A DNA stretch of 43,252 nucleotides from Melioribacter roseus (GTDB lineage: Bacteria > Bacteroidota > Ignavibacteria > Ignavibacteriales > Melioribacteraceae): NCBI GenBank assembly GCA_020722085.1, contig DYLN01000016.1:1-43252 (forward strand), read 5' to 3'. Each line of letters begins with the position of its first letter. Position 1 is the first letter of the stretch. A program made the translations under genes and the position numbers. The notes beneath the pieces are model-generated. The model ran no database searches. It saw only the letters and a list, made by a program, of their open reading frames with translations, and was not told the DNA's origin. Below are positions 6,001 to 40,715 of this stretch, piece after piece.

Positions 6001-6010
6001 TTAATTTTTT

Positions 6011-8572: not shown

Positions 8573-9631
8573 TCATTGTTTTCTATGCTTATAATGAACA
8601 TCGGACAAACCATATAATATGCTGGCACAATATTCGGGTGTGAGGTCTCTTTGAGGTTCTGCAAGCATTTCATAGCCGACCATAAATTTTTTTATGGCTG
8701 CCGATCTTAACAGCGGAGGATAAAAATGCATGTGCAGATGCCATTCCTTATGTTCTTTTCCGTCTGTAGGAGCCTGATGTATTCCGGATGAATATGGAAA
8801 CGACGTTGAAAACAAATTGTCGTATTTAGTTGTAATCACTCTAAGTACGTTCGAAAAATCTTTTTTTTCATTTTCTTTAAGTTGAAGGATATCTGCAATT
8901 TTTCTTTTGGGAATGATTAAAGTCTCGAAAGGCCAGACAGCCCAGTAAGGCACAACAACAGCAAAAGAAGAATTTTCGTAAACAAGTCTCTCTTTAAGCC
9001 TCAATTCTAGTTTCAAATAGTCCGAAAGAAGACTCCGTTTATTTTTTCGAAAATATTGCTTGAAATTTTTCAGTTCCTTTCCCGGTTCCATCGGGATGCT
9101 TTCCTGAGCCCAAATCTGACAATGTGGATGAGGGTTGCTGTTTCCCATCATCGAACCTTTGTTCTCAAAAATCTGAACGTGATTTATATGCGGGTGTCTG
9201 CCCAAATTTTCAAATTCTTCCTGCCAAGCAAGAATTACTTTTTCTATATCTCCTTCGTCCATTTCGGCAAGCGTCAAATCATGGCGCGGGGAAAAGTTCA
9301 CCACCTTGCAGATTCCTTTTTCGCTTCTGGCGACGAGTAGATTTTTTTTATTAAAAACTGCCTTGGGTGAATCCTCTATTAATGCAGAAAAGTCATTGGT
9401 AAAAACAAATGTATTTTTATAATCCGGATTGAATTCACCGTTAGCACGTTTATTGCCGGGACACAAATAACAACCCGGGTCATATTGTGGTATTGTTTCC
9501 AAATCCGACTTTGATACTTCACCGAGCCATGGTCTTTGTGTCCGATGAGGAGAAACTAAGACCCATTCCCCTGTTAAAATATTTTTTCGTCTATGAGGAA
9601 AATTATTTAGATCATCTTTCAGCATTTTCAT
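8573..9631 (-). CDS. galT: Galactose-1-phosphate uridylyltransferase
   Basis: A 352-residue cytoplasmic enzyme that exchanges UDP-glucose and galactose-1-phosphate for glucose-1-phosphate and UDP-galactose (Leloir pathway). The signature SNPHPHCQIWA is at about 165-175, with the nucleophilic histidine H170. Zinc ligands are probably C54 and C57 (CYLC), H117 and H168. Cys after HPH is the form seen in the human enzyme; E. coli has Gly. Length matches the family. The start codon lies inside the end of galK (20-base overlap; a second in-frame ATG six bases later is possible), so the two are translationally coupled. It is the last gene of the 32-kb unidirectional cluster. Confidence 0.97.
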   Translation of the reverse strand: MKMLKDDLNNFPHRRKNILTGEWVLVSPHRTQRPWLGEVSKSDLETIPQYDPGCYLCPGNKRANGEFNPDYKNTFVFTNDFSALIEDSPKAVFNKKNLLVARSEKGICKVVNFSPRHDLTLAEMDEGDIEKVILAWQEEFENLGRHPHINHVQIFENKGSMMGNSNPHPHCQIWAQESIPMEPGKELKNFKQYFRKNKRSLLSDYLKLELRLKERLVYENSSFAVVVPYWAVWPFETLIIPKRKIADILQLKENEKKDFSNVLRVITTKYDNLFSTSFPYSSGIHQAPTDGKEHKEWHLHMHFYPPLLRSAAIKKFMVGYEMLAEPQRDLTPEYCASILYGLSDVHYKHRKQ

Positions 9632-10793
9632 TTACTGGGATAATATTTGTGCCGCCGCTAATTTTTGTTACGTAAATTTCCGGATCGATATTGAATTTAT
9701 CTTTATAACTTTTTAAAACGAACAGGGTTATTTCATCAATCGAATCATTTTCAATTATGTTAATCGTACAGCCGCCGAAACCGCCGCCCATCATTCTTGA
9801 GCCGTAAACGCCGGGTTTATCTTTCAAAATGTCAACCAAAAAATTCAGTTTTGCGCAGCTCACTTCATACTCGCTTCTTAATCCTTCGTGAGTCAGATAC
9901 ATTAATGAGCCAAAAGTTATTAAATCCCCTTTTTCAAGCGACGAGCAGGCATTGAGCACTCTTTGATTTTCTTCGACAACATATTTACATCGTTTAAATA
10001 TCACAGAGTTCATCCGGAATTTAAATTCATCCAACATTTCAACGGAAACATCCCTCAAACTCCCTACATGATTATATTTTTTCCGAATTATCTCCACACC
10101 TTCGCCGCATTCTTTCTTTCTCTGATTATATTCGGATGAAGCGAGAGAATGTGAAACGCCGCTGTTAAACAAAACGATGGAAGCATTTTCGAATTTAAAA
10201 GGAAAATACTCATACTCAAGCGACCTGCAATCAATCTTCAGAACTTTTTCTTCTTCACCGAAGATGTTTATATACTGATCCATTATTCCGCACTTAACAC
10301 CTACAAATTCGTTCTCGGCTTTTTGAGCCAATTTAACAAGTGTAAGTTTATCGATTCCCAGATTAAAAATATAATTTAGAGCATAGGCTAATCCGGCTTC
10401 AATTGCTGCAGAAGATGAAAGTCCAGCGCCTATTGGGATATCGCCACCGAAGACACAATTAAACCCGTTTAATTTGTAGCCGGCTTTTACAAGCTGGTCA
10501 ACTACTCCCATTAAATAATTAGCCCAGTTTTTTTCTGAAAACTTTAAATCGGAAACCCGGAATTTGTAACTATCGTCCATATCATAAGAGTACAAACTGC
10601 ATTCGTTGTCGCTGCGGGGTGTTATTGCAAAATAAATTGCTCTGTCAATTGCTGCCGGCAACACGAATCCCATGTTATAATCCGTATGCTCGCCGATTAA
10701 ATTCACCCTTCCCGGCGAACGAAAGAGAACGGGTTTTTCATTAAAAAGTTCTTCAAACTTTCTTTCTATGGCTGAAGAAATGTTAATAGTCAA
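9612..10793 (-). CDS. galK: Galactokinase
   Basis: A 393-residue GHMP-family kinase that phosphorylates galactose at C1 with ATP. Visible motifs are the galactokinase signature GRVNLIGEHTDYNMGFVLP (28-46), catalytic R25, the glycine/serine-rich ATP loop IGAGLSSSAA (121-130), the catalytic base D172 in CGIMDQYINIFG, and the C-terminal GSRMMGGGFGGCT motif. The start codon appears to be TTG, two bases after the stop of the preceding small membrane protein. No in-frame ATG occurs before residue 41, which is already inside the signature. No Shine-Dalgarno sequence is evident, suggesting translational coupling. Confidence 0.97.
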   Translation of the reverse strand: MTINISSAIERKFEELFNEKPVLFRSPGRVNLIGEHTDYNMGFVLPAAIDRAIYFAITPRSDNECSLYSYDMDDSYKFRVSDLKFSEKNWANYLMGVVDQLVKAGYKLNGFNCVFGGDIPIGAGLSSSAAIEAGLAYALNYIFNLGIDKLTLVKLAQKAENEFVGVKCGIMDQYINIFGEEEKVLKIDCRSLEYEYFPFKFENASIVLFNSGVSHSLASSEYNQRKKECGEGVEIIRKKYNHVGSLRDVSVEMLDEFKFRMNSVIFKRCKYVVEENQRVLNACSSLEKGDLITFGSLMYLTHEGLRSEYEVSCAKLNFLVDILKDKPGVYGSRMMGGGFGGCTINIIENDSIDEITLFVLKSYKDKFNIDPEIYVTKISGGTNIIPVNENAER

Positions 10794-10794
10794 G

Positions 10795-10995
10795 TTATAC
10801 TGTTTTATTTTTTGTTTTGAAGAACATTATTCCGCCAAAAGCAACCATAACGGCTCCCCACCAAATATTTGGATGGATGCTGCTTAACACCGTTTCGCGC
10901 AGTGATGGATTTATCAATAAATAAATGCCTGTTAGAAATATGATCCCTCCCATTACAAGAAGGATTAATCCTACAAAGTACCAGATTGGTTTCAT
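10795..10995 (-). CDS. Small two-helix membrane protein
   Basis: A 66-residue protein with two hydrophobic helices: about 4-28 (IWYFVGLILLVMGGIIFLTGIY) and about 44-61 (IWWGAVMVAFGGIMFF), then a basic tail KTKNKTV. No known family was recognised. It ends two bases before the galK start codon, so it is co-translated with galK and galT. Its inner-membrane location fits a minor accessory of the sugar uptake system, but that is only position-based inference. Confidence 0.7.
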   Translation of the reverse strand: MKPIWYFVGLILLVMGGIIFLTGIYLLINPSLRETVLSSIHPNIWWGAVMVAFGGIMFFKTKNKTV

Positions 10996-11022
10996 AAAAG
11001 GCCTACTCCCAAGAGGGTGACC

Positions 11023-11188
11023 AGAAAGTAATTTTCAATTTTAAAATCCCCCGCAAGCGGGGCAAGCTGTGGAAACCCCCGCTCTGCCAAAGCGAAGCGA
11101 GGCGAGCCCCGACACAAGTGTCGGGACGAGCGTTCAAATCAGCGTCATTTGTGTTCTATTTTTTAAGAAAATATTACTTTTTGGTCAA
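11023..11188. repeat. Dispersed intergenic repeat, copy B
   Basis: Second copy of the repeat at 1-224, same orientation. It holds one 24-base palindromic unit (11107-11130, CCCGACAC-AA-GTGTCGGG core) where copy A has three. It fills most of the 234-base gap between the symporter gene and the small membrane protein, splitting the galactose end of the cluster. The perfect hairpin could act as a terminator or RNA-processing point here. Confidence 0.85.
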
Positions 11189-11229
11189 CCTCAATTTTTT
11201 TAAAGTGGTTTTGTGATTATTTACTCTAA

Positions 11230-12900
11230 TTACCAAAATAAAATATTAAGAATAACAAGAACAATAATTGAAATTATAGCTGCGAAAGCCGGACGTTTGA
11301 TAAACGGAAGATGTGCATCATGTTTTTCCTCCGTTAAACCTTTTACAAGTCCGATCAACTCTTCTTTCGGTTTCTTCTTAGTAAACAGGCTTATTATAAT
11401 TGTCAGCATAAAACAGATCAGCCAAGCCCACCATGCGCGCCAAAAATTTGCAGCCATATCACTTTGAACGCTCGACATAGTAATAATACTTTCGCTGAAC
11501 CAATGAAATTTTACACCCATCCACATAAAAAATGAAGAAAGCATTCCGGTAACTAACCCCCAGAACGCTCCGTTGGGAGTAATCCACCAGACAAACATCC
11601 CAAGCAGCATAGTTGCAAATAATGGTGCATTAACCCACGAAAAAATTGCCTGCATATAATCCATTATACTTGGAAAACTTTTTGCCCAGTATGCCGTGCC
11701 AAGCGAAATGATAACGCCTACAATTGTAGAAACTCTCCCCATCCAAAGTAAATGAGTCTCGGAAGCATTTCTGTTTAAAACAGATTTATAAATATCATAA
11801 GTCCAAACGGTATTAAATGCGCTGATATTGCCCGCCTGACCTGCCATAAATCCGGCAAGAAGCGCTGTTACACCTAATCCAACCAAGCCTGTTGGGTAAT
11901 ACCTTTTAATTAATAACGGAAGAGCTGAATCGTAGTTAACCTGTCCGCCGTCCTGCAAAAGTTTAAATCCACTGTTGGGATCGCTGGAAAGCGCAATTGC
12001 AATTAAGCCGGCAAGAATAACAATAAAAGGCAAAGCCATTTTAAAAAATGATGCAAGGATCGGAGTCATTCTCGCAGAGCGAAGGTCTTTTGCAGAAAAT
12101 GCACGCTGAACAACAAGAAAATCGGTAGTCCAGTATCCGAATGATAGAACAAATCCAAGTCCCAAAACAATACCCGCCCAGTGAACCAGCATCCCGTTTT
12201 GTGAAGGATCGCCGGAAGTTGACCACAAAGTATTCATTGTCTCCGGCAGTCTGTTTAATATTTGGTCAACACTCCCTATTTCAATAATTCCTAAAATTGA
12301 AACAAGAAATAATCCGAACCAGATTAAGAAGAACTGAATTATCTCAGTAAATATTGCCGACATTAATCCGCTCAAGCCAACATAAACAGCAATAGTAACC
12401 GCAGAAATCCACATGCTTATATCCCAGTTCCATCCTAAAAATGTATGAAGCACGAGAGCCATTGCATAAAGATTAATTCCTGAAACAAGCAATGTCATAA
12501 TTGCAAAAGCAATTCCGTTTAGTACGCGGGTTTTTTCATCGTATCTTAACTTGAGATATCCAGGAATTGATTTGATTTTACTGCTGTAATAAAAAGGCAT
12601 CATATAAATGCCGAGAAAAAGCATGGCGGGAATTGCCCCAATCCAGTAAAAGTGGGCAACATACATTCCGTATTTGAAAGTATTGCCAGTCATTCCAAGA
12701 AGTTCAAGAGCACCGAGGTTTGCCGAAAGAAAAGCAAGTCCGGCAACCCATGAAGAGTTTTTTCGTCCGGCAAGAAAAAAGTCTTCCTCGCTAGTTGTAA
12801 ACTTGCGAAGGTAAACACCGATGCCTAAAACAAAAGCAAAGTAGATAGCAATTATAAGCCAGTCCACGAAAGAAAGACCAATAGCAATGTTGTTTTCCAT
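11230..12900 (-). CDS. Sodium:solute symporter, SGLT-type sugar transporter
   Basis: A 556-residue SSS-family (LeuT-fold) inner-membrane transporter. Hydrophobic segments are distributed as in a 14-helix SGLT protein. Typical motifs are the first helix VDWLIIAIYFAFVLGIGVYL, DFFLAGRKNSSWVAGLAFLSANLGALELLGMTG in helices 1-2, and SFGYWTTDFLVVQRAFSAKDLRSAR in the middle. It would couple Na+ to monosaccharide uptake, with galactose or glucose the natural guess given galK and galT downstream. It sits 307 bases below the LacI gene, so it may have its own promoter; TAGTTTTG (complement of 12974-12981) fits a -7 box. Confidence 0.92.
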   Translation of the reverse strand: MENNIAIGLSFVDWLIIAIYFAFVLGIGVYLRKFTTSEEDFFLAGRKNSSWVAGLAFLSANLGALELLGMTGNTFKYGMYVAHFYWIGAIPAMLFLGIYMMPFYYSSKIKSIPGYLKLRYDEKTRVLNGIAFAIMTLLVSGINLYAMALVLHTFLGWNWDISMWISAVTIAVYVGLSGLMSAIFTEIIQFFLIWFGLFLVSILGIIEIGSVDQILNRLPETMNTLWSTSGDPSQNGMLVHWAGIVLGLGFVLSFGYWTTDFLVVQRAFSAKDLRSARMTPILASFFKMALPFIVILAGLIAIALSSDPNSGFKLLQDGGQVNYDSALPLLIKRYYPTGLVGLGVTALLAGFMAGQAGNISAFNTVWTYDIYKSVLNRNASETHLLWMGRVSTIVGVIISLGTAYWAKSFPSIMDYMQAIFSWVNAPLFATMLLGMFVWWITPNGAFWGLVTGMLSSFFMWMGVKFHWFSESIITMSSVQSDMAANFWRAWWAWLICFMLTIIISLFTKKKPKEELIGLVKGLTEEKHDAHLPFIKRPAFAAIISIIVLVILNILFW

Positions 12901-13207: not shown

Positions 13208-14269
13208 TTAAAATTTATTAAATGAAGATTCATAAAGGTTATTTTTATAATCATTGCAGCCGCACGAATTCCGAATCACTAATTCTGATTTAACGATTAA
13301 ATTCTCTACCGATTCTTTTTTGTTTTGAATATGAGCAATTAATTTCTGTGCTGCGGCTTTGCCTACTTCGTATGCGTGCTGCTTAACCGTTGTTAAAGGA
13401 ATAGGCATAAGTTCAGCGCGTATATCATCAGAAAATCCAACAAGAGCAATATCTTCCGGAATACGCAGTCCCTTTTCCAAAATAGCCTTCATCGCTCCGA
13501 AAGCCGCAGGGTCATTTACCGCAACAACAGCTCTCGGCCAATCTTTTTTAGGTAATTCCAAAAGTTTATTCATAGCATTATACCCGCCTGTTTCATGAAA
13601 TCCTGCTTCTATAATCAATCTGTTATCATAAACTATTTTATATTTTTTTAAGGCTTTCAAGAATCCTTTTAATCTCTCTTTCGCAATTGAAATAGATTTA
13701 GGACCGCTAAGATGGGCAATTCTTTTGTATTTGTGATTAATCAAGTGTTCTGTAATTTTAAAAGCACTTTCTTCATCGTTTATACTTACACAGCTAGCAC
13801 CTATATTATAAACGCAGCGGTCAAAAAATACTACGTGTAATCCCATATTAATTACTTGTTTGTAAATTTTATACTCAGTATCAGATTCTGCAACAGAGGC
13901 GAGGATTCCATCTACACGACGGGATGCAAGTGTTTCAATTGCTGATATTTCTCTCTTAGCATCTTCAGCTGAATGTGTAAGTATAATATTATAACCCTCT
14001 TTATAAACTACTTCTTCAATCCCTTTAATTGCCTCTGGAAAGAAAGAATGCGTAATTTCCGGAACCATTACACCTATAGTATGCGTTTTTGCAATAACAA
14101 GACTTTTTGCAATTTGGTTTGGGAAATATCCAAGTTCACGAGCAGTCCTTACAACTTTTTCTTTGGTTTCCTCATCAACGTTGGGCTTGTTATTTAATGC
14201 TCTGGAAACAGTCATCATTGAAAGATTCAACGTGTCTGCAATGTTTTTTAACGTTACTCTTTTTACCAT
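13208..14269 (-). CDS. LacI-family transcriptional regulator
   Basis: A 353-residue regulator. The N-terminal helix-turn-helix and hinge (about 3-60: VTLKNIADTLNLSMMTVSRALNN, then ELGYFPNQIAKSL) are canonical, followed by a periplasmic-binding-protein-like sugar-sensing domain (about 62-340) with IGVMVPEITHSFFPEAIKGIE, RRVDGILAS, VVFFDRC and IALVGFSDD. It probably binds the 18-bp palindrome at 40661-40678 at the head of the cluster and is released by a sugar or its phosphate. The gene begins four bases after the upstream glycosidase, so it lies inside the operon and would control its own synthesis. Confidence 0.95.
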   Translation of the reverse strand: MVKRVTLKNIADTLNLSMMTVSRALNNKPNVDEETKEKVVRTARELGYFPNQIAKSLVIAKTHTIGVMVPEITHSFFPEAIKGIEEVVYKEGYNIILTHSAEDAKREISAIETLASRRVDGILASVAESDTEYKIYKQVINMGLHVVFFDRCVYNIGASCVSINDEESAFKITEHLINHKYKRIAHLSGPKSISIAKERLKGFLKALKKYKIVYDNRLIIEAGFHETGGYNAMNKLLELPKKDWPRAVVAVNDPAAFGAMKAILEKGLRIPEDIALVGFSDDIRAELMPIPLTTVKQHAYEVGKAAAQKLIAHIQNKKESVENLIVKSELVIRNSCGCNDYKNNLYESSFNKF

Positions 14270-14273
14270 TTTT

Positions 14274-16889
14274 TTATTTCTTAATTATCGTAATTATCTT
14301 TTCTCGAACAAATTCGTCATTAGAGCGATTCTGCAATCTTATTTTAATATGCCCGTTTAACAATTCTCCCCCTATTACATTTTTTACTAATTCCTGATTA
14401 CGAATTCCAAGCATATATTGCTTTTCTGCTTTTCCTTCGACATAAGTAATAATGCTATCAGCTTTCAGTTCTTGATACAGAATTTTTAAAGAACCGTTAA
14501 TTCCACCTATATTTGATTTTGATGGCAGTAAATAAAGCTCAGGAACAGGGTCAATATCAAGTTTCAAGGCTGCAGTTTTTCTAAATTCAAATTCTATCTC
14601 TACTAAAAACGCTTGTTCGGAGTTAAGTACTTTATAAGCAATAGGTTTATTGTTCATAATTACAGATTTTGCACTTGTTCCAAGTCCAAGAGCAGGTGTG
14701 AAAATAAACTTAATTTGGTTAGAACCGGTATTCACAATATTAAGTTTAATCTCGTCTCTTTTTCTTTGCATATATATATTTAGAACATCATTACCAACTT
14801 TCACATTGTTCACCGCAAGACTATCCCAATTTGACGGGAGGTGGGGAGAAAAGCGAATAATTTTCTGAGGTGCATTAACATCTAAACCTATTAAACCCCT
14901 CATAAAAGGCTCAACAAAACCAGAGGCTGAAAAGCCCTGGTCATGATAGCCTTCGGCTAATTTAGTGTTAAAATTCCCGGAAAAAACTTCCCCGACTACG
15001 CCGAGTCCATTATCGAAAAAGTGATTTGCATTAGCCTGTATTAATCCAAAGGCAGAAAGACTATAATCATAATTGTACAAAGCACGTGCCATCAAAGTAG
15101 AAATAAACGGCCAAACTGCACCGTAATTATAATTTGCCGGGTCATAAAGTTCCGATTTATTTGAAAGGGACCGTACACCCCAGTCGGTTATCAGATCAGA
15201 AGTATTCATCCTTTTGAGCGCTTCAACCGCACGGATGTTATTTAATACTTTGAATTTCATTCCCGTTGCTGGCCATGGTGTAATTTCATCTACTTGTTCC
15301 CCTTTTTCAGTAGCGCCATAACTATACATATTTTTCGCAGGTATCCAAAATTTATCTTCCATTGCTTTTAATGCTTTTTTCAATTCCGATTCTGCATCTG
15401 CCTTTAATTTTAAATCCCCAACCGCATCAGACATTTCAATTACTGCTTCAATCCCTTTTGTCCAAATTGCAGAAGTGTAAAAGTCAGCATAAATATTTAC
15501 ATATTTTCCAAATTCAAGCACTCCCAAGCCTGCGCCTTTCAAATCCATCAACCCATCGCCGTCACTATCCTTTGTTAAACACCAATTATAAGCCTGTTTA
15601 ATTGAATTCCAGCTTTCCTTAATAAATTCTAAGTCACCGCTTTGATGATAATAATCACCGGCTGCAACCAAATACCATGGTGTCGTATCCGCATGGTTAT
15701 ACCCAAAGTGATAATCATTCCACCAATCAATAAGTCCTTCACTTTGCGAAAGTTCGTGAGCCATTTTACCGATATCTTTATTTATTTCATTCGGGCTTTT
15801 CTTTCTGATAGGGAAGTTATTCTCGCGCTGCCATTTTTGTGTAAATTTTAATGCGTCCTTTTCCGTTATAAAATCTTGAAAGCTGTTAAAAGATAAAGAA
15901 TTGATAAAGCAATCACCGCCAAAGAACCAGGCAAAGCCGGGTCGACCGCCGCCTCCAGACAAGCCATAACCCGCGACCATCCCGTAACCCAAATTAGGAT
16001 TGTCTACCATTAAATTATGAAGTGCAACTTTTCCCCATTCATAAGCAAGATTCAACTTTCTATCCGGAGTTATTACTTCAATTGTTGAGTTCCTCAAATT
16101 TTTGTAGTACACATAATTTTCATCATACAGCTTTTCAATATGTGCTAAAACATTTTTATACAAAGCTCTCACAGAATCGTATTTCGTTTTAACGGGACTT
16201 CCGGCAATTATAATCGGGATGAATTTATCATCATTTTCGCCGGGATTAATTTCCAGCTTAAATTGAATCGGGTTATCTGCAAACATGTGAGCAGGCGGCG
16301 CAGCCATCTGTTTCGCAACGGGCGAGCCGCATAAAAATAATCCCCGCTGCTGCGATTCGGAAATTACATAAGCGTTTATTTGGTCATCCCAATAACTGTA
16401 TTGTCCGCCGATTCCGGCAGGCCATTGCGGCTGCATAACAGGCATAAAACCAGGCACAATTGTAAGCGGTGTTGTTGTGTAAACATCAAGTAAAATTACA
16501 GCGGCGGTTTGTTCAACGGGAATAAACATAATTTCTTTTATAGTGAACGATTCGTAAACAAAAGTAATTGTAGTTGCTTCGGGAGCTACAGATATATCGT
16601 GGACAATATCTTTGGAAGAAATTGGCTGGGTAGTTGTTCCGACAAAAAACTGCAAATCGAAATTGCGTAAAACTTTCCACGGCCAGACCCAAAATTCAAA
16701 CGAACCGTTTTGCCAGCCCATTAATGCTGCTTTACGTCCAATTTTATCCATATATTGGTTCGGCTGCGCATGCTCCGAAAGAGTAAGGCCGTTTTCTTTT
16801 AATGCAAATTTATCGATTAATCCGTTCTGTGCGGAAACAGTAGTAGTTATTATAATAGCTAGTGCAAAAATTATTTTAAATTGTTTCAT
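14274..16889 (-). CDS. Exported six-hairpin glycosidase, amylo-alpha-1,6-glucosidase-like (871 aa)
   Basis: A secreted (alpha/alpha)6-barrel glycosidase. The signal peptide is about 1-20 (ending TTTVSAQ). Residues about 20-260 form a beta-rich N-terminal domain; the catalytic region (about 270-690) has GGGRPGFAWFFGGDCF, DTTPWYLVAAGDYY, TKDSDGDGLMD and TDWGVRSLSN ... YNYGAVWPF, typical of GDE_C-like enzymes; a beta-rich C-terminal domain follows. It has no T9SS tail and no lipobox, so it is probably periplasmic. It is paralogous to the 1145-residue protein at 21244-24681. Specificity is unknown; alpha-linked oligosaccharide is the family-based guess. There is no Shine-Dalgarno sequence. Confidence 0.8.
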   Translation of the reverse strand: MKQFKIIFALAIIITTTVSAQNGLIDKFALKENGLTLSEHAQPNQYMDKIGRKAALMGWQNGSFEFWVWPWKVLRNFDLQFFVGTTTQPISSKDIVHDISVAPEATTITFVYESFTIKEIMFIPVEQTAAVILLDVYTTTPLTIVPGFMPVMQPQWPAGIGGQYSYWDDQINAYVISESQQRGLFLCGSPVAKQMAAPPAHMFADNPIQFKLEINPGENDDKFIPIIIAGSPVKTKYDSVRALYKNVLAHIEKLYDENYVYYKNLRNSTIEVITPDRKLNLAYEWGKVALHNLMVDNPNLGYGMVAGYGLSGGGGRPGFAWFFGGDCFINSLSFNSFQDFITEKDALKFTQKWQRENNFPIRKKSPNEINKDIGKMAHELSQSEGLIDWWNDYHFGYNHADTTPWYLVAAGDYYHQSGDLEFIKESWNSIKQAYNWCLTKDSDGDGLMDLKGAGLGVLEFGKYVNIYADFYTSAIWTKGIEAVIEMSDAVGDLKLKADAESELKKALKAMEDKFWIPAKNMYSYGATEKGEQVDEITPWPATGMKFKVLNNIRAVEALKRMNTSDLITDWGVRSLSNKSELYDPANYNYGAVWPFISTLMARALYNYDYSLSAFGLIQANANHFFDNGLGVVGEVFSGNFNTKLAEGYHDQGFSASGFVEPFMRGLIGLDVNAPQKIIRFSPHLPSNWDSLAVNNVKVGNDVLNIYMQRKRDEIKLNIVNTGSNQIKFIFTPALGLGTSAKSVIMNNKPIAYKVLNSEQAFLVEIEFEFRKTAALKLDIDPVPELYLLPSKSNIGGINGSLKILYQELKADSIITYVEGKAEKQYMLGIRNQELVKNVIGGELLNGHIKIRLQNRSNDEFVREKIITIIKK

Positions 16890-16900
16890 TGTTGTATGCT

Positions 16901-19072: not shown

Positions 19073-19116
19073 TTCAGTTTCCCCTGCAGTTTTCGTTTTA
19101 ATTAAACGGCTTTTGT

Positions 19117-28842: not shown

Positions 28843-28871
28843 ATTTTATCAAGAATTATTTTTTATAGATT

Positions 28872-29795: not shown

Positions 29796-29811
29796 ATGAC
29801 AATTCCAATTT

Positions 29812-31590: not shown

Positions 31591-31605
31591 AGAAGACTTC
31601 TTTCA

Positions 31606-33450: not shown

Positions 33451-36224
33451 CACCAATCCACTCTTATTCCCAGTCGCACATATCTGCCGGTTGAAAATTG
33501 TCTTGGGTCCATAAGTCTGTACATCGTATACCAATCGTAATAGACCTTCGTACCCGGTTGAATATCTCCATACTTATAAGGCTTACCAGTCCAGTTATTA
33601 AATCCGTAAGCAATCTGAACATTTTTCTGGTCAAACAAGTTAAACACCTCTAGTTCGAAGCCTAAAGTTATTCCGCCGATTAGCTCAAAGCTTTTTATGA
33701 ACCTAATATCAGTTTGGGTAGTTATTGGACCTGTTGCAGAGTTTGCCAACTTTTGCGCATCGGCTTGGCTAAAAGTGCCAGGTGTATAAGGCTGTCCGGA
33801 AGAAAAATTAGAAAGTACTGTCAACGACCAATCATCCGGTAATTGTATTCCAAATAATTTCATAGGTCGTTCTTTAGGAGAGCTGATCGTTCCTTGAAAA
33901 ACTATTTGATGTCTAACATCCCAGTCAAGTCTGTTTTCGCGTATTGGATTAGGGAAATCAGTTAATGAACGGATATAGTCTGCAAATGCAGAAGAAGAAT
34001 AACCATTTGCCCATTGTACTGTATAGGTGAGTTTTCCGGAAATAAAATTCGAGTAAAGTTTATTTAAGGTAAATTCTAGTCCTCGTGCTCTAGAATATCC
34101 AATATTGTCATACAAATCGACTGGAATCCCCATAGCAGCTCTAAGATGAGTTGTGCCAACTTGTTTTGATATATCCTTTGCATAGCTTTTAATATCCAAT
34201 CCCCAATTTTCACCAATCTGATATGTTAACCCAAATTCGTATTGAATCGTTTGTTCAAAGTTCAATTTTGGATTACCTGTGAACGAGCCGCTATAAGGGT
34301 CGCGGTAGTAAAATTGTAATTCGGGCAGTTGGGTAAAATGTCCATATGAAAAATAAGTAACCATTTTTTCTGATATCGGAAATGAAATTCCAAATCTCGG
34401 ACTAAACTGATATTTGAACAGATTCCAATCAGCTTTGAAGCCGGTAGCATCTTCCCATTGTTGTTTCCAGCCGGGGTCATTAACAGTCTTTCCAAGATAA
34501 AACCAATCCCAGCGAATTCCGGCATTTATTATTAAGAATTCTTTTTCAAACTTATCTTGAACATAAATACTTCCTATCCACGGATAGGTATGAAACACCC
34601 ACCGATATTGCCCAAACTCAGGGTACGGTCCTGGAGGAGGTGATACTTTAGGTCCATTATTATACAGATATTCACCATAATTCGACAGCTTTGTTCCACC
34701 ATCTTCAATATCAACATAACTTAAATCGTTGTACTTTACCGTAGCACCAATTTTAACAAGATGTTCAGAAAAAACTTGAGATGTTAAATCAGTGATAAAA
34801 GAAAAGGTAGAAGTGTTATCGTCTCTCCAAATAGCTTGAAAACTATCACCGGCATAAAAACCAGTTAAGGGATCGAAGTAAGGAGCCTTGATTTTAGAGG
34901 AATCTGTCCAGCCATTTGGAGTTTGTTTTATATCCCAATAATCTTCCGGCGTGCGATTATTCAAGTCTTCATGATATTTAACACCCAAATAACCCAATCT
35001 TACATTCATAAAAGTAGATTGAGAAAAAATATGCTTATATTGAATATTTAATTCGTTATTAAATCTGAGATAACCGGGGGTGTTATCAGGGTAATATTTC
35101 CAGAGCCAGTCAAATTGACTCCAATAATTCCACGAACCATTATAACTGATTACTAGTTGAGAATTTTTTGAAATATCCCAATTAATCTTAGTAGTTAATG
35201 TAGCAGTGTTAGTCTGTTTTTCAGTAACATTAATACCAAATAAATTTATCTTATGACGAGTACGATTGTTATTATACGGCGTATTAGTCAAATTGACTGT
35301 GGCATTCAAAAAATAGTAAAGTTGTCCAGGTACATTAATTCCTAATGCTGGCAGTATATTTCGTGTTATTGGTTCAGGACCACCTAAATAGACTGTAGCA
35401 TACTGTGTTTGGTAATCTTCACCTAAAAATCTAAAACTATCGTTTTTATATTCTACACCGCCGATAAACTTGTCGCTGCCGGTTCTTGTAGTAATATTAA
35501 CCACGCCGGACTGGGCTTCACCATATTCAGCATTAAAAGCACCTGTTAATAATTGAACTTGCTGAACTGAATTAACATCAAGATCAAGCACGCTTCTACC
35601 GCCATAAAGGGGATGTGTAACAGGCATCCCGTCAACGAGGAATAAAATCTCACCACCTCTTCCTCCTCTAATATGAATATCTTTAACACTTTGGTCCCTT
35701 ACCTGTAATTGTGTATCACCTAAAGGTACTAGTTGAGGCGCTGTACCGATGACGGTACCTCCCTGTAATTTAAAAATATCAGAGGTGGTTTGTAAACCGG
35801 GTACATTTCTAATATCTTCACGTGTAACGGTTCTTTCTGTATTGGTAACGTCTTTCTGAATTATCTTCGGCTGAGCTGTTACCACAACTGTGGGGGTCTG
35901 AATAGACGCAGGTTCTAGTTGAATATTAATCTCCGAAGTAAGATCCGCTCTAACTAAAACATTTTCTACAGAAATTGTGTGATACCCGACCATAGAAACT
36001 CTTAAAGTATATGTAGCGGGCGGAATGCCAATAATATAATATTTTCCTTCCTCATCGCTGGCAGCGCCCAGAGAGGTACCTACCAAAACAACATTAGCAC
36101 CTATAAGAGCTCCCCCAGTCTCTTTATCTATAATTTTACCTGCTATTTTCCCTGAACCAGATGCAAATATTTGAATGCTCAGCAAAAAAAGTATTAATAA
36201 AGTTTTAATTCCACTCCTTGTCAA
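33450..36224 (-). CDS. TonB-dependent receptor of the carbohydrate locus (924 aa)
   Basis: Outer membrane transporter. Signal peptide about 1-22 (ending IFASGS); carboxypeptidase-D-like domain about 24-105 (GKIAGKIIDKETGGALIGAN ... YTLRVSMVGYHTISV); plug about 120-240 (IHIRGGRGGEILFLVDGMPV, QVQLLTGAFNAEYGEAQSG); then a large barrel ending VRLGIRVDW. The translation start is TTG, supported by AAAGGAGA eight bases upstream; no ATG is close. It stands where SusC would in a polysaccharide locus, but no SusD-family lipoprotein is present; two unrelated lipoproteins precede it instead. It should import glycan fragments, energised by TonB. Confidence 0.92.
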   Translation of the reverse strand: MTRSGIKTLLILFLLSIQIFASGSGKIAGKIIDKETGGALIGANVVLVGTSLGAASDEEGKYYIIGIPPATYTLRVSMVGYHTISVENVLVRADLTSEINIQLEPASIQTPTVVVTAQPKIIQKDVTNTERTVTREDIRNVPGLQTTSDIFKLQGGTVIGTAPQLVPLGDTQLQVRDQSVKDIHIRGGRGGEILFLVDGMPVTHPLYGGRSVLDLDVNSVQQVQLLTGAFNAEYGEAQSGVVNITTRTGSDKFIGGVEYKNDSFRFLGEDYQTQYATVYLGGPEPITRNILPALGINVPGQLYYFLNATVNLTNTPYNNNRTRHKINLFGINVTEKQTNTATLTTKINWDISKNSQLVISYNGSWNYWSQFDWLWKYYPDNTPGYLRFNNELNIQYKHIFSQSTFMNVRLGYLGVKYHEDLNNRTPEDYWDIKQTPNGWTDSSKIKAPYFDPLTGFYAGDSFQAIWRDDNTSTFSFITDLTSQVFSEHLVKIGATVKYNDLSYVDIEDGGTKLSNYGEYLYNNGPKVSPPPGPYPEFGQYRWVFHTYPWIGSIYVQDKFEKEFLIINAGIRWDWFYLGKTVNDPGWKQQWEDATGFKADWNLFKYQFSPRFGISFPISEKMVTYFSYGHFTQLPELQFYYRDPYSGSFTGNPKLNFEQTIQYEFGLTYQIGENWGLDIKSYAKDISKQVGTTHLRAAMGIPVDLYDNIGYSRARGLEFTLNKLYSNFISGKLTYTVQWANGYSSSAFADYIRSLTDFPNPIRENRLDWDVRHQIVFQGTISSPKERPMKLFGIQLPDDWSLTVLSNFSSGQPYTPGTFSQADAQKLANSATGPITTQTDIRFIKSFELIGGITLGFELEVFNLFDQKNVQIAYGFNNWTGKPYKYGDIQPGTKVYYDWYTMYRLMDPRQFSTGRYVRLGIRVDW

Positions 36225-36231
36225 GGTTAAA

Positions 36232-36239
36232 TCTCCTTT
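36232..36239 (-). promoter_or_regulatory. Ribosome binding site deciding the TTG start of the TonB receptor
   Basis: AAAGGAGA on the minus strand sits eight bases before the TTG at 36224. It lies against the stop codon of the preceding lipoprotein gene. Confidence 0.65.
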
Positions 36240-37703
36240 TTACTGCAAGTTTAAGCTGTGAAGTATATCTGTTACCATCTGTTTAGCATCATCTTTTTGA
36301 ATAAAATAAATCGGGAACCCTAGAATAACGGCGTCAAAAACAGTACCATAATACCTTAGGCCAACTGCGCGTCCTCTATATTGAAAATATGGACTATCGT
36401 TTGCATTATCGTAAGAGTAGATAATGTCTGTGAACCCTGCTCTTTGTGTAACAAGATTAATTTGCCCTAACTTGCCATAGTAAGGAAACGCTTCTGCAAG
36501 TTTTGCTGAATCGACACGAATATTCGGATAACCTTTAGCGGCAATTGCTCCGGTAAAATCTGCATCCAAGACAGTTTCATCAACAGAAATAATGTGCAAA
36601 TAATCATGAACAAAAGAGCCTTTTGGAAAAGAAACAGGGAAGTTTTGATTCCATGCAAAAGATTTCAATATTCGCCAGCCGCTCATAATAAACTTGCCAC
36701 CAACATTCAAATAATCCGATAATTCTTGTTGATTTGCTAAGACTGATAATGCATGCGGCTGTGCACTAGGGCGGTCGTCTGCCACCCAGACTACTAATTT
36801 ATATTGCCCTAAGGTATCTTTAGGAGGCATGCCCTTTGATAAATAATTCCACCAATCATTGCCGGGAAACAGATCTGAATAGAAATTTCTAACATCTTGA
36901 CTACTGCTTTGCACACCAGGGGGAAAGTTATTTACATTGGTTTCGTTAATTATTAAAATCTTTTTGTTAAAAGTTGCTTGAAGCAACCTAATTGTAACTG
37001 AATCTCCGACTGGGTCGACAAGATTGGTATTATTCTTAGATGTCACTCTAAGAACATGATTTCCTACCAAAGGTGGCTTAAATAAATTGGGTGTAATATA
37101 AACAGAAGTATCTTGTGACCAATTCCAAACACCGTCGTCAACCGACCATGCATACGATACTACCTTTCCACCCTCTTCAGCATCTTCGGCAGTAAATGTT
37201 AGCTGGATTCCCTGCCACCAATCTGTTGTTTGATTTACAGCAAAAAAAATTTGCTTATTGGTTGGAGAAATAATTTTTGTCGTGGGCGGGCTGGCTTTTC
37301 GGGTAAAGAAAATTTTTGTCGCAGGCGTGGGATCTGGCGTACCATTATTATCCACTGCTCTTACTTCAAAAAACTGCTTGTTCAATATATCATCAGAAAC
37401 AAACGCAATGGTCTGACTCGTCTCTTTTGTATCTCTCCATGGTTGAATAACAGAATCACCCATAACAATATGATAGGTAGTATATCTATATTGGTAATTG
37501 GTTACATATCCATCATTGTCGTTTCCATCCCAATGTAAAGTAGCAAGGGCAAACAAAGTATCCCCTTCTTTTGGAATATTTGCAATAATAGTATTTGGCG
37601 GCTCATTTGGATTTGGCGGGGATGTTGGTCTTTCACATGAATTGCATATAAGAAATAATACTGTTAACGATATAAAAGAAAAAATAATAGACAAAATTTT
37701 CAT
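36240..37703 (-). CDS. Lipoprotein with amidotransferase-like C-terminal domain (487 aa)
   Basis: Lipoprotein signal with Cys23 (LICNSCERP; C20 is a less likely site). Residues about 35-240 contain two Ig/fibronectin-like modules (GDTLFALATLHWDGNDNDGY, FTAEDAEEGGKVVSYAWSVDDG). The C-terminal half (about 245-487) resembles a class I glutamine-amidotransferase-like fold: KKILIINETN, QYKLVVWVADD, ELSDYLNVGGKFIMSGWR and a final strand-helix DAVILGFPIYFIQKDDAKQMV. No catalytic Cys-His-Glu triad is evident, so it is probably a binding or scaffolding protein. It sits between another lipoprotein (28 bases away) and the TonB receptor (15 bases), the position normally held by SusD. Confidence 0.72.
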   Translation of the reverse strand: MKILSIIFSFISLTVLFLICNSCERPTSPPNPNEPPNTIIANIPKEGDTLFALATLHWDGNDNDGYVTNYQYRYTTYHIVMGDSVIQPWRDTKETSQTIAFVSDDILNKQFFEVRAVDNNGTPDPTPATKIFFTRKASPPTTKIISPTNKQIFFAVNQTTDWWQGIQLTFTAEDAEEGGKVVSYAWSVDDGVWNWSQDTSVYITPNLFKPPLVGNHVLRVTSKNNTNLVDPVGDSVTIRLLQATFNKKILIINETNVNNFPPGVQSSSQDVRNFYSDLFPGNDWWNYLSKGMPPKDTLGQYKLVVWVADDRPSAQPHALSVLANQQELSDYLNVGGKFIMSGWRILKSFAWNQNFPVSFPKGSFVHDYLHIISVDETVLDADFTGAIAAKGYPNIRVDSAKLAEAFPYYGKLGQINLVTQRAGFTDIIYSYDNANDSPYFQYRGRAVGLRYYGTVFDAVILGFPIYFIQKDDAKQMVTDILHSLNLQ

Positions 37704-37731
37704 CTCATAATTTCCTTTTGTCTGTTGACCC

Positions 37732-38340
37732 TTAAAAGTATTTTACGTCAACAATTTCGAGTTTACGATCAAAATAATATGTATCTCTATAACGCTGCAC
37801 CGATTTAAAAGGGCTTAATTGAACTTTAATTTCTGTTGTCGCATTCTCAGAAATTTTAAAGCCAACAGGTAAAGTAACTAACTTCGGAACATCTGGAGGT
37901 AACTCAACTGGTATATCAAATATATTTATGTGTAATAAATCGGCAGTCATGCCAAATACAATTGAAGTATAGTTCCCCGGTGGTACGTATGATTCAAAAA
38001 TAGTATGCGGTTTATAGGTATTGTTCTCTCTTTCAATTACATTAATTATTTTGTCTTCTTGCCTATAACTTTCTATAGTAGGATACAAAATGGCAAATAT
38101 TGAATCCGAATAAGCCTTCCCTTGAAAAACAGTGGTTTTAAAATAGTCACCGTTAGAAACAGTAATTGTATCTTTAATAATTATTATTGAAGTATCAGTT
38201 GGATCAGATTGTAAAATTATTTTTAATACACCGGGTTTTGGTGAACTTTGAACGCCTGTATCACAACTTGTGATAAAGACAATTGTTATCAGGATTAAGG
38301 CAAATCCGTAAAGAATATTCTTATAATATTTATTTGTCAT
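37732..38340 (-). CDS. Lipoprotein of unknown function (202 aa)
   Basis: Begins MTNKYYKN, then a hydrophobic stretch GFALILITIVFITSC with Cys26 as the lipidation site. The mature part is beta-rich (GVLKIILQSDPTDTSIIIIK, YVPPGNYTSIVFGMTADLL), resembling a small transthyretin/prealbumin-like or Ig fold, but no family was recognised. It is followed after 28 bases by the second lipoprotein. It could be an accessory subunit of the receptor complex at the outer membrane. Confidence 0.72.
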   Translation of the reverse strand: MTNKYYKNILYGFALILITIVFITSCDTGVQSSPKPGVLKIILQSDPTDTSIIIIKDTITVSNGDYFKTTVFQGKAYSDSIFAILYPTIESYRQEDKIINVIERENNTYKPHTIFESYVPPGNYTSIVFGMTADLLHINIFDIPVELPPDVPKLVTLPVGFKISENATTEIKVQLSPFKSVQRYRDTYYFDRKLEIVDVKYF

Positions 38341-38378
38341 CTTCCTAAGTATTAACTCTGTTAAATAATAGTATATAG

Positions 38379-38408
38379 GGGGAATATATATATTTCAATA
38401 CATTCCCC
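38379..38408 (-). other. Intercistronic hairpin after the first gene of the cluster
   Basis: GGGGAAT (38379-38385) pairs with ATTCCCC (38402-38408), a perfect seven-base stem with a 16-base A+T-rich loop. It lies just downstream of the 700-residue protein gene. No T-run follows, so it is more likely an RNA-stabilising or partial attenuating structure than a full terminator. Confidence 0.45.
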
Positions 38409-38428
38409 TTTCTGAATAAGCGCACACC

Positions 38429-40531
38429 TTAACGCAACAGAACCATTTTCTTCGTCTGAACAAAATCCTCTGCGACCAATCTATACATATATACACCACT
38501 AGCTACGCGCTCGCCTTTGTTATTTGTTCCATCCCACGATACTGTGTATTTTCCCGCTTGCGTAAAATCATTAATCAGCGTTTTCACATTTCTGCCTAAT
38601 ATATCATAAACAGTTAATGATATTTTCTGCGCTTTTGGAATTACAAATTTAATTATTGTTGTTGGGTTAAAAGGATTAGGATAATTTTGAGATAATTCAT
38701 AGTACGCCGGTACTAATGTGTTATCTCGATTAACACCTGTAACTGAATTTTTGGCTTGCCCATTATTATAGATTCGTACATCGTCAATTAATCCTCTAAA
38801 ACCTCGCCTACCATTTAAGTTGCTGCCGTTGCCAATCCTTAATGGAGCATTTGCTATCGCTGGTGGGTTAACAGCAACTGAGGAATCATATCCAACACTT
38901 AACATTGTATTTGTGGAATCAAACAGCATAAAGACAGCGGCGGTATCCGTTCTTTTGTAAACGACACGGTACCAACTATGCAATTTTATTGAATCAGGCA
39001 ATGTAATTTCACTGTAATCCTTTGTTCTATTAGGCGCATTGGGATCAACATAATAACGAGCTCTAATTCTAGCATTAGGTTGAAATCTTATTTCATAATT
39101 ATTCTGATACCAGTTTCCTCTCACAATTGGTCTATTTAATAGGCGTGTATATTCCAAAGTGGAATCTGCATTAAACCAAAATGAAACGTAAAAATCCTTC
39201 ATGGTAAGAAAAGGTGAAGGTACTTCTAGAAAAGCAGAATCGGCATCAGATGGCATTAATAATGAATATTTACCTTCAGCAGCATTAGTAGAATAAACTG
39301 GTGCCCTATTCCCAAAAGTAGTAACTTTATTTACAAGAGGAGAAACATCAACCGGTGTGCCAGAACCATTTTCAAAATTGAGGTGGAGTACCAATATATT
39401 AGGTTTATAAACAACAAAAGAGTAATACGGAAAATCTTGTCCGCCTATGCCTGCTATAGGCTGTTGAGCGGTCAACCCCTGATCATCGGTAGCGGTTATG
39501 TAATAACGAACCTCCGTACCAAAATTTTGTTTGGGAATTAACCCTACATAATGATCTTGAGAAACCATCATAACCATTGGTGTTGATTGCCAAGTATTTC
39601 CTTCATCTACTGAATAGTGAATTTCAGCGCTCTGAATAGAGCCAGTTGATGAAAAAGCCATTATGTCTGCTTCAACAGAATAATTATCTACGCTATCCGG
39701 CTGATTAGGAACTTGCGTCAGATTAGTTATTATTGGCGGAACAGCAAAGTTTCTTACAATATTGCTAATCCGAATTTCATCGACAAATCCATCCAACCAT
39801 CCATCCGTGCTACCTTGTCCGGCAAAGCCGATTGTTACCGGCTGCTTTGTTTGAATTGGTGGAACATCTAAGACAGGGTCATAACTTGCCGTATTGAACG
39901 AAATTAGCTGCCTTTTATCATCATGAACCATTTGAATTAGAATGTGACGGGTAGTATCGCGAATAAATGTTAAATGAAACCATTTACCTGGCATAAGTGT
40001 ATTGTTAGGAGAGTTAACCTGTGGCCATCTATCTTGCCCTTCTACATTATAACCGGTAGAGAAAAATCTATTACTCCCCCAGTTCTCAACAAAATAATTG
40101 GGGCGCCAGAAAACTTCATCGCCAGCCTTAATGACCAACCGCGGGACCCATCTCCAGTCAGATGAGCTTGTCCCATAAGTAAAAACATTCATCCAACCTT
40201 CTATTGTCCAGTTACCTTTTAGATTCAAAGCAGCAGTGTCAGCTACACTCACATAGGAGGAATCACTAATAGCATCATTATTTATACGCAAGCATTGACC
40301 AAGACCTAAGGCGGCATTGGATAGATATGTAAGTTTACCATACCCAACTCCATCTGCTGAAAATTGTGACTCATTTTGGAGATTGCCGTCAAAGTGCATT
40401 AACAGTACAGTGTTGCTATCTGGCGTGTAAGGACCTCCAATTTGTTCTTGGGCAAAAGAGGAATTACTGATACCCAGTAAAAAAAATATAACAAGAGAAA
40501 AAGGGAATGTTCTGTGTAGTATTTCTGTCAT
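38429..40531 (-). CDS. T9SS-secreted LamG-domain protein (700 aa)
   Basis: First gene of the cluster. Signal peptide about 1-28 (LGISNSSFAQE). Two concanavalin-like LamG domains are visible: about 38-265 (TVLLMHFDGNLQNESQFSADG ... GWLDGFVDEIRISNIVRNF) and about 380-600 (ILVLHLNFENGSGTPVD ... FRGLIDDVRIYNNGQAK), separated by a fibronectin-like segment. The last 90 residues are a T9SS sorting domain (LSQNYPNPFNPTTIIKFVIP, DILGRNVKTL, GVYMYRLVAEDFVQTKKMVLLR). It is probably a surface glycan-binding protein. An ideal AGGAGG (complement of 40538-40543) precedes the ATG, suggesting high expression. Confidence 0.85.
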   Translation of the reverse strand: MTEILHRTFPFSLVIFFLLGISNSSFAQEQIGGPYTPDSNTVLLMHFDGNLQNESQFSADGVGYGKLTYLSNAALGLGQCLRINNDAISDSSYVSVADTAALNLKGNWTIEGWMNVFTYGTSSSDWRWVPRLVIKAGDEVFWRPNYFVENWGSNRFFSTGYNVEGQDRWPQVNSPNNTLMPGKWFHLTFIRDTTRHILIQMVHDDKRQLISFNTASYDPVLDVPPIQTKQPVTIGFAGQGSTDGWLDGFVDEIRISNIVRNFAVPPIITNLTQVPNQPDSVDNYSVEADIMAFSSTGSIQSAEIHYSVDEGNTWQSTPMVMMVSQDHYVGLIPKQNFGTEVRYYITATDDQGLTAQQPIAGIGGQDFPYYSFVVYKPNILVLHLNFENGSGTPVDVSPLVNKVTTFGNRAPVYSTNAAEGKYSLLMPSDADSAFLEVPSPFLTMKDFYVSFWFNADSTLEYTRLLNRPIVRGNWYQNNYEIRFQPNARIRARYYVDPNAPNRTKDYSEITLPDSIKLHSWYRVVYKRTDTAAVFMLFDSTNTMLSVGYDSSVAVNPPAIANAPLRIGNGSNLNGRRGFRGLIDDVRIYNNGQAKNSVTGVNRDNTLVPAYYELSQNYPNPFNPTTIIKFVIPKAQKISLTVYDILGRNVKTLINDFTQAGKYTVSWDGTNNKGERVASGVYMYRLVAEDFVQTKKMVLLR

Positions 40532-40660
40532 AAGCAGCCTCCTAGTTATTAGTTAAATTATTGTTCGTGGCATATTAAGGTAAAATAAATCTTCATTGGC
40601 TTGTCAACCTTTTATTTATTTATCGTTGAATCCAATGATTGAACATAATTTCAAAACAAA

Positions 40661-40678
40661 AATGTTAGCGCTAACATT
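40661..40678. promoter_or_regulatory. LacI-family operator, perfect 18-bp palindrome
   Basis: AATGTTAGCGCTAACATT is perfectly self-complementary and has the central CG step and form typical of LacI/GalR-family operators. It lies immediately downstream of a promoter-like sequence for the minus-strand cluster, so a bound repressor would block transcription. The LacI-family protein at 13208-14269 is the obvious candidate. I saw no second copy in the window. Confidence 0.85.
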
Positions 40679-40684
40679 CTGAAT

Positions 40685-40715
40685 GCAATTTAACATCTAT
40701 ATTTATTAAAGTCAA
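40685..40715 (-). promoter_or_regulatory. Promoter of the carbohydrate cluster
   Basis: On the minus strand, TTGACT (complement of 40710-40715) is 17 bases from TAAATT (complement of 40687-40692). Read as a Bacteroidetes promoter, TTG and TAAATTGC are 20 bases apart, the same spacing as at the toxin-antitoxin promoter. The operator starts eight bases after the -7/-10 box, covering the probable start site. The leader would be about 150 bases. Confidence 0.6.

Follow-up and report, generated by a model that had tools for sequence, protein, structure and literature searches.

A glycan-use gene cluster in Melioribacter roseus

The DNA analysed here (the window) is a stretch of 43,252 nucleotides that makes up one whole contig (DYLN01000016.1) of a 3.64-Mb draft genome of Melioribacter roseus, class Ignavibacteria. 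Seventeen minus-strand open reading frames (ORFs) follow one another between positions 8573 and 40531, and searches with the Pfam and NCBIfam families bore out the full gene list of a preliminary description, made from the sequence alone, which had read them as a LacI-controlled, SusD-less glycan utilisation locus linked to the type IX secretion system (T9SS). The locus belongs to a recognisable kind of glycan-use cluster. Its interest rests not on the locus alone but on a widespread general module that it contains, formed by a TonB-dependent receptor, a surface protein with a distinct C-terminal tail and a paralogue of PorV, three components found together repeatedly around the matches that we fetched from other genomes.

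In the window the parts of this module are adjacent. The TonB-dependent receptor (33450..36224, minus strand, as are all the genes below) shows Plug, CarboxypepD_reg, OMP_b-brl_4 and beta-barrel matches. It is followed by two surface proteins with the special tail, which share 57% identity: surface protein 1 (31606..33450) and surface protein 2 (29812..31590), the latter modelled, with a predicted local distance difference test score (pLDDT) of 89.9, as a beta-supersandwich, an Fn3-like part and the tail. The ORF of surface protein 1, 31606-33534, is over-extended at a TTG codon; its likely start is the ATG at 33450, which overlaps the stop of the receptor by one base. The PorV/PorQ-family paralogue comes next (28872..29795; NF033709, 168.2 bits, cut-off 90).

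Three genes precede the receptor. The cluster is headed by a LamG surface protein with a T9SS type A tail (38429..40531; Laminin_G_3, 4.4e-17; TIGR04183, 42.8 bits, cut-off 23). Lipoprotein 2, of 202 amino acids (37732..38340), has an N-terminus that looks lipobox-like by eye, and lipoprotein 1 (36240..37703), which resembles surface glycan-binding proteins, combines two Fn3-like domains with an amidotransferase-like one. A homologue of lipoprotein 2 is found in 34 of the 40 class-I loci, class I being those of 80 named loci, many of which end at contig edges, whose lipoprotein 1 scores above 300 bits.

Behind the PorV paralogue lie an exported enzyme of the GH172 family (DUF2961; 26848..28842; PF11175, 5.4e-85, 285 bits, cut-off 27), a secreted Big_2 protein with a T9SS tail (24712..26775; TIGR04183, 41.2 bits, cut-off 23) and four glycosidases, all of the (alpha/alpha)6 type. 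Two of these are GDE_C/GH116-like: glycosidase D (21244..24681), in which family searches found a DUF4960-like front domain before the catalytic domain, and glycosidase A (14274..16889; 7vma, 3e-12). The other two are GH63/YgjK-like: glycosidase C (19117..21213; PF22422, 8e-42; YgjK, 6e-15) and glycosidase B (16901..19072; PF22422, 5e-48; PRK10137, 1.2e-33, below its cut-off). A LacI-family regulator (13208..14269; PF00356, 6e-14; Peripla_BP_1, 3e-37) is encoded 4 bp behind glycosidase A, and the run closes with a sodium:solute (SSF) symporter (11230..12900; PF00474, 8e-50) that would take up sugar across the inner membrane, the galactokinase gene galK (9612..10793; GalKase_gal_bdg, 1.7e-23, and GHMP kinase domains) and the galactose-1-phosphate uridylyltransferase gene galT (8573..9631; PF01087, 1e-62; PF02744, 2e-63).

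The preliminary description took the 32 kb as one unit, which fits the 14 genes from the LamG gene to the LacI gene, where no intergenic gap exceeds 88 bp. It fits the remaining three less well: gaps of 307 bp between the LacI and symporter genes and of 436 bp between the symporter gene and galK suggest that galK, galT and the symporter gene may form transcripts separate from the 14-gene run.

Conserved synteny, which the preliminary description had proposed to seek in the Ignavibacteria, was found. In a genome of the same genus (G001) all 17 genes stand in the same order at 68-93% identity, the symporter being 93% identical, with one extra lipoprotein gene inserted. A second genome (G022) keeps 16 of the 17 over about 49 kb (symporter 79% identical, LacI 67%), with one surface protein instead of two, galT placed elsewhere and extra genes in between. 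A third (G030) retains the LamG protein, both lipoproteins, the receptor, one surface protein, the PorV paralogue, the GH172 enzyme, the Big_2 protein and glycosidases D and C.

SusD is scarce throughout the class

No SusD-family match was obtained with Pfam at an E-value of 0.01 among the 17 proteins, including the lipoproteins, where such a match would have told against the preliminary description. Genome-wide, PF07980 and PF14322 (PF12741 and PF12771 were not part of this search) had no match in the 3.64-Mb assembly, with a positive Bacteroides control, and the statement that the locus holds no SusD-like protein stands. The receptor reaches 80.6 bits against the SusC model TIGR04056, far below the cut-off of 368. 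Of the features of a SusCD-type locus, the cluster shows a TonB receptor with linked glycosidases, and neither a SusD lipoprotein nor a receptor of the SusC/RagA family was found. We also considered that a lipoprotein could be a hidden SusD. The SusD fold is helical; the model of lipoprotein 1 is made of beta domains and an alpha/beta domain, and there was no Pfam match, and on these grounds the candidate was rejected. SusD entries were also missing from the two lists of 50 fold matches each obtained for lipoprotein 1, an observation that is inconclusive taken alone.

This absence is not peculiar to the locus. Within a sample of 198 genomes of the phylum, taken as the same 198 for the SusD and the tail counts, PF07980 occurs in 10 of the 49 sampled members of the class, with 11 copies in total, versus 96 of the 149 other genomes. 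Here SusD counts beyond about ten are lower bounds, since at most about 11 candidates were scored per genome, and the class size of 49 comprises 48 members with a tail match and one listed without, unlisted genomes being taken as outside the class. The available text of a survey of paddy-soil metagenomes likewise reports that susCD was hardly ever detected among the gene clusters of Ignavibacteriales, whose machinery it describes as distinct (PMC10576277), and that of the M. roseus genome report describes a single SusCDE starch locus (PMC3534657). The preliminary description had counted the lack of SusD among the features that set the locus apart. This needs correcting: because the scarcity is class-wide and already in print (PMC10576277), being SusD-less is by itself not the finding.

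The special tail, the PorV paralogue and the TonB receptor recur together

The special tail that the surface proteins of these modules share is marked by the motifs VVPNPY and F-NLP-C-I-IYT. Neither of the two window surface proteins matches TIGR04183, the tail of type A cargo, at an E-value of 0.01, and each matches the tail end of the PorZ model below its cut-off (E-values 1.9e-5 and 1.1e-4); Pfam found no family in the window surface protein. The LamG and Big_2 proteins do have the type A tail, and the T9SS link that had been claimed for the locus is upheld. The two tail classes separate without ambiguous cases into 68 special and 106 type A proteins in the named loci, and into 103 and 158 over all fetched loci, a separation that is partly by construction, as the fetched loci supplied the models. 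Matches to the surface protein were present in all 38 genomes searched (own genome included), many of them through the tail part only. The special tail may be intermediate between types A and B.

The barrel of the module is a separate paralogue. The window protein scores 59.1 bits against the PorV equivalog NF033710 (cut-off 250), stays below the cut-off of the PorQ equivalog as well, and found no match in a PDB sequence search at an E-value of 0.01. The genome has a canonical PorV on another contig, directly behind PorU (970 bits), and the T9SS core gene SprA (1012 bits). We considered the window protein as the PorV of the secretion system itself and rejected this on the equivalog score and on the separate gene behind PorU.

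We then took a census of the own genome and four single-contig genomes, counting same-strand distances only and tails of at least 70 bits. (The tail counts use model A1, 9 of whose 35 rows come from these five genomes.) Within 11 kb of each of the 49 special tails lies a PorV paralogue over the cut-off (within 1.5 kb for 39), and a TonB plug lies within 7 kb of 41; three weaker tails are far from any PorV. The four single-contig genomes place 37 of 39 tails within 10 kb of a PorV paralogue, compared with 1.42 on average and 17 at most over 1000 rotations, in which each genome's PorV set is shifted as a block, hence the occasional high values. Sets with both partners account for 40 of the 62 PorV-family genes of the census, three to ten sets per genome, and 20 of the genes, including one canonical PorV per genome, have no special tail nearby. 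Both partners are also seen for 91 of 99 distinct special-tail proteins in the fetched loci (four loci fetched twice were counted once). Among the other eight, one PorV is hidden under an antisense ORF, one set is divided over two fetched stretches and six are cut by contig ends. Most fetched loci were chosen by surface-protein similarity and the 80 named loci by receptor similarity, with only the remaining partners independent in each case. This recurrence supports, for the outer membrane, the suggestion of the preliminary description that the locus may represent a different architecture.

Tandem arrangements were also seen. In genome G037, four tandem special-tail proteins stand beside one PorV paralogue (C1:2536247-2548281), with no same-strand TonB plug within 100 kb, the opposite strand having one at about 4 kb. 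Four more form a second group at 1742-1755 kb, behind a receptor.

Distribution of the module and its variants

The special tail was found in 48 of the 49 sampled class members, with at least 288 copies and three or more copies in 31 of them (floor values, at most 22 being scored per genome), and in 55 of the 149 genomes outside the class. The 38 other genomes with at least ten SusD matches have at most one tail each, and over the 198 genomes SusD and tail copies are negatively rank-correlated (-0.24, p 6e-4, kinship uncorrected). Among the 80 named loci, the module occurs in records labelled Ignavibacteria, Calditrichota, KSB1, Neomarinimicrobiota, Rhodothermales, WOR-3, Fermentibacteria and Zixibacteria. 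Some of them, such as L125 and L140, show a receptor with no PorV or special-tail gene in view. One contig, L097, is filed under Archaeoglobus sp. and bears a bacterial outer-membrane locus; it is most likely misbinned.

Homologues of the sugar genes of the M. roseus locus are present in 21 of the 40 class-I loci, and another module of the same genome (L049) has genes for a solute-binding protein, two ABC permeases and GH130 as neighbours. Judged by its gene neighbourhoods, the module does not appear to be for glycans only.

Predicted folds of the surface proteins and enzymes

In the model of surface protein 2, the front part, from about residue 20 to residues 345-447, resembles the domains that stand at the front of glucodextranase, GH116 and GH94 enzymes, with Z scores of about 16-20. 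The helical catalytic barrel of these enzymes is missing from the model; an Fn3-like part and then the tail, whose start is modelled with low confidence, follow. A shared fold alone shows no function, but a domain of sugar enzymes without its catalytic half could plausibly bind glycans.

Lipoprotein 1 has a lipobox cysteine, C23, that is nearly invariant in 40 sequences, and a confident model (pLDDT 93.6) with a match to an Fn3 tandem. For its C-terminal domain the matches include GH42 domains, with Z up to 16.3, and, at a lower score, a chain of the levan utilisome, 8aa2_G (Z 11.3, root-mean-square deviation 3.6, 192 residues). Pfam gave no family for the window protein, and PKD in 4 of 40 members. 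The levan utilisome contains a surface glycan-binding lipoprotein, as the available text of its description states (PMC7618045), and from the chain length we infer that chain G of 8aa2 is this protein. The predicted fold makes it likely that the locus holds a counterpart of the utilisome binding protein and none of SusD. The DUF4960-like front of glycosidase D and the amidotransferase-like domain of lipoprotein 1 may be the same domain, shared by an enzyme and a binding protein of one locus.

Leads on the substrate come from the GH172 enzyme, which matches difructose dianhydride I synthase/hydrolase (7v1v, 6e-63) and exo-alpha-D-arabinofuranosidase (8ic8, 4e-37), both of which we take to be GH172 members, and from galK and galT. 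The GH172 enzyme and glycosidases A-D have signal sequences by eye and no T9SS tail match in Pfam, and for this reason we place them in the periplasm.

Probable LacI control of the head of the cluster

About 130 bp before the LamG gene lies a putative LacI-type operator, TGTTAGCGCTAACA (40663..40676), a perfect palindrome with a central CG whose exact sequence occurs once in the whole genome. Perfect CG-centred palindromes are also found about 100-150 bp before the LamG gene in G001, G022, G030 and L114 (L110 is a contig of G030). The starts of LamG genes in the named loci have such a palindrome in 3 of 23 cases, one of different sequence, and control genes in 6 of 596; genome G016 was left out of the palindrome comparison, its contig starting 120 bases before the LamG gene. 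We considered a chance palindrome and ruled it out by the uniqueness in the genome and the like placement in relatives, though it is missing in most distant loci.

The regulator itself has the helix-turn-helix and the sugar-binding domain of the LacI family, to which a CG-centred palindrome near the start of a target gene also belongs, and a LacI-family homologue occurs in 12 of the 40 class-I loci versus none of the other 40 named loci. A promoter-like site, TTGACT-17-TAAATT (40687..40715, minus strand; 9 of 12 consensus matches), lies just upstream of the operator, so that a repressor bound there would block the promoter. This site is weak and a candidate only, and it is the one result used from scans that gave 84 promoter-like sites between 24000 and 41000 (17 kb) versus 63.6 expected in shuffles, with 11 terminator-like sites versus 11.3, and, between 8400 and 16000, 18 promoter-like sites versus 23.7 and 12 terminator-like sites versus 5.9. 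As its gene is the last of the 14-gene run, LacI would control its own synthesis.

Taken together, the sequence evidence makes LacI control of the 14-gene run well supported for this genus and its near relatives. The LacI control that had been proposed for the whole cluster can be kept for its head, where the unique and conserved operator lies; for the symporter gene, galK and galT it is less certain, and no second perfect CG-centred palindrome was found in the window.

A proposed SusD-less utilisome built on a T9SS-exported protein

We propose that the locus encodes a LacI-regulated, SusD-less utilisome in which a T9SS-exported binding protein is held by its own PorV-like barrel, a reading to which we give a probability of roughly 55%; the glycan probably contains galactose. 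In this model the LamG protein and lipoprotein 1 would catch the glycan. The T9SS would export both surface proteins, whose predicted fold relates them to the beta-supersandwich of (alpha/alpha)6 glycosidases, minus the catalytic barrel. Their special tails would be left uncleaved and kept in place by the neighbouring PorV paralogue, in the way that PorV holds PorU and PorQ holds PorZ. Standing over the TonB receptor, the surface proteins would pass oligosaccharide to it, the job that SusD does elsewhere, and the receptor would import it. The tail-less exported glycosidases A-D and the GH172 enzyme would then cut the oligosaccharide in the periplasm, the symporter would take up the sugar, GalK and GalT would route it to glycolysis, and freed sugar would release LacI. 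The parts on which this hinges, namely export, tail retention, the complex and the hand-over of glycan, are ones that we infer. The available text of a review of the T9SS records that PorV holds PorU and PorQ holds PorZ, both with their tails retained, and suggests that a PorV-like barrel may shield the tail of its cognate protein from cleavage (PMC10202324).

The preliminary idea that T9SS cargo and a PorV homologue replace SusD persists in altered form. Gene order, predicted fold and distribution are consistent with a surface protein and a PorV paralogue in SusD's place, and the barrel is not the PorV of the T9SS itself.

A number of observations weigh against this proposal. The type B tail model CHU_C matches 7 of 53 surface proteins weakly (best 1.6e-4), which would point toward relatives of PorP/SprF. 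The tail is present in one or two copies only in 17 of the 48 tail-bearing class members, and SusD and the tail occur together in 45 of the 149 genomes outside the class, with no mutual exclusion. A palindrome of the TGTTA type stands at only 2 of the 23 LamG-gene starts in the named loci (L110 and L114), and there is none before the LamG gene of G027, a genome with the outer-membrane part present and with no glycosidases in the stretch examined. The substrate signals diverge, the GH172 enzyme pointing to fructofuranosides or D-arabinofuranosides and galK and galT to galactose. Two further points, one from distances and one from gene order, bear on what the barrel does.

The PorV paralogue could instead be the partner of the TonB receptor, as a FadL-type side channel or a scaffold, and not the holder of the tail; the surface protein would then be T9SS cargo of the ordinary sort, which PorU cleaves and which is either released or attached to lipopolysaccharide. 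In distance matrices of 74 modules, receptor and PorV form the tightest pair after correction (partial correlation given the tail 0.71), and that of tail and PorV given the receptor is 0.17; by coevolution distances the tail-PorV pair does not stand out. In its second form, seen in L057, L058, L134, L151, L163 and others from several phyla, the module has the order surface protein, type A-tailed protein, lipoprotein, receptor and PorV paralogue, with the barrel after the receptor and the surface protein three to five genes before the barrel. There is also a FadL-like barrel, BamG, with an extracellular partner in another Bacteroidota complex, for which the authors, in the available text, doubt a PorV-like role (PMC12578637). 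We nevertheless find this explanation unlikely, if a serious contender. The census tails keep to a PorV paralogue in all 49 cases, among them eight, in three places, without a same-strand receptor plug within 7 kb, and of the 34 other tails found in the own genome with the PorU model, 25 sit on contigs that have no PorV-family gene over the cut-off, a count weakened by short contigs. Held, uncleaved tails have precedents, moreover, in the PorU-PorV and PorZ-PorQ pairs (PMC10202324).

Nor need the module be a transporter at all. The sets of receptor, surface protein and PorV could build a surface layer or an adhesion system with sugar genes as chance neighbours. Of the 40 named loci that lack lipoprotein 1, 39 show no homologue of the sugar genes, and L057 and (by similar proteins) L058, both of the second form, adjoin genes of central metabolism, those for 2-oxoacid oxidoreductase; both points count against our proposal as well. 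The frequency of sugar genes in class-I loci, the TonB plug of the receptor and the presence of operator and LacI gene in the same gene run make such a system very improbable.

A simpler possibility is that of an ordinary glycan locus in which the receptor acts alone, as in proteobacteria, and the surface proteins and the PorV paralogue are accessory parts for adhesion or enzyme display that uptake can dispense with. In other phyla, glycans are imported by TonB receptors that have no SusD. The class-wide scarcity of SusD, already printed (PMC10576277), also speaks for it. A three-gene neighbourhood repeated across several phyla exceeds, however, what accessory parts need, and the predicted fold of the surface protein is that of a sugar-enzyme domain, and we regard this possibility as improbable.

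Comparison with known systems

With SusCD loci and the levan utilisome of Bacteroides thetaiotaomicron, as far as the available text goes (PMC7618045), the locus has in common a TonB receptor with a CarboxypepD domain, a surface lipoprotein, putatively glycan-binding, with a fold like 8aa2_G, exported glycosidases, a linked regulator and sugar catabolism. SusCD loci are usually under regulators other than LacI. The locus differs in that no SusD was found, the receptor is far below the SusC cut-off, the surface protein has a T9SS-like tail, and a PorV paralogue and a LacI regulator with an operator are present. The SusCDE starch locus of Melioribacter roseus (PMC3534657, in part) is from related bacteria and also serves glycan use through a TonB receptor, but it has a SusD, and PF07980 was not found in the present genome or in 39 of the 49 sampled class members.

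Two T9SS arrangements come close, both as outlined in the available text of the same review (PMC10202324). The attachment complex of PorU, PorV, PorQ and PorZ likewise pairs a PorV-family barrel with a surface protein that has a C-terminal domain; in the locus, by contrast, the barrel is a separate paralogue, a TonB receptor is part of the gene run and there are several paralogues per genome. Type B cargo with its cognate PorP/SprF is similar in that the cargo gene clusters with its own barrel, and the weak CHU_C matches are shared, whereas the barrel of the locus belongs to the PorV/PorQ family by NCBIfam (PorP/SprF was not searched) and a TonB receptor is in the set. A review of TonB transporters names SusD and, in its available part, neither PorV nor type IX (PMC11658791). 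Among the papers listed by our searches of the open-licence literature of PubMed Central, none described the module, judged mostly by titles and abstract beginnings.

A wider claim would be that the module is a second general kind of TonB-dependent uptake machine, in which the substrate-binding partner of the receptor is, in place of a SusD lipoprotein, a T9SS-exported protein fixed in the outer membrane by its uncleaved specialised tail on a dedicated PorV paralogue, in use across Ignavibacteria, Calditrichota, KSB1, Neomarinimicrobiota, Zixibacteria and their neighbours. We put this forward tentatively, as possible though somewhat doubtful. If it is true, the T9SS would build transporters and not merely serve as a secretion route; such sets number three to ten in each of the five census genomes. 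For the uptake of large nutrients by the SusD-poor relatives of the gut Bacteroidota, the three-gene module is a concrete candidate, and it would link the T9SS to nutrient import. As a genome marker, the special tail beside a PorV paralogue and a TonB receptor may point to uptake loci that a SusCD-based search misses.

Neighbouring genes and the Big_2 protein

Adjoining the locus, window positions 633-8179 encode a LuxR response regulator, a Reg_prop/Y_Y_Y sensor kinase, a PIN protein and a second TonB receptor, which has no PorV-family or special-tail gene beside it. In the Big_2 protein with the T9SS tail, a stretch HSVGHRVE resembles, by eye, a zinc-binding motif. Homologues of this protein, both full-length and shorter (the latter of 338 and 336 amino acids), are present in the G022 and G030 loci.

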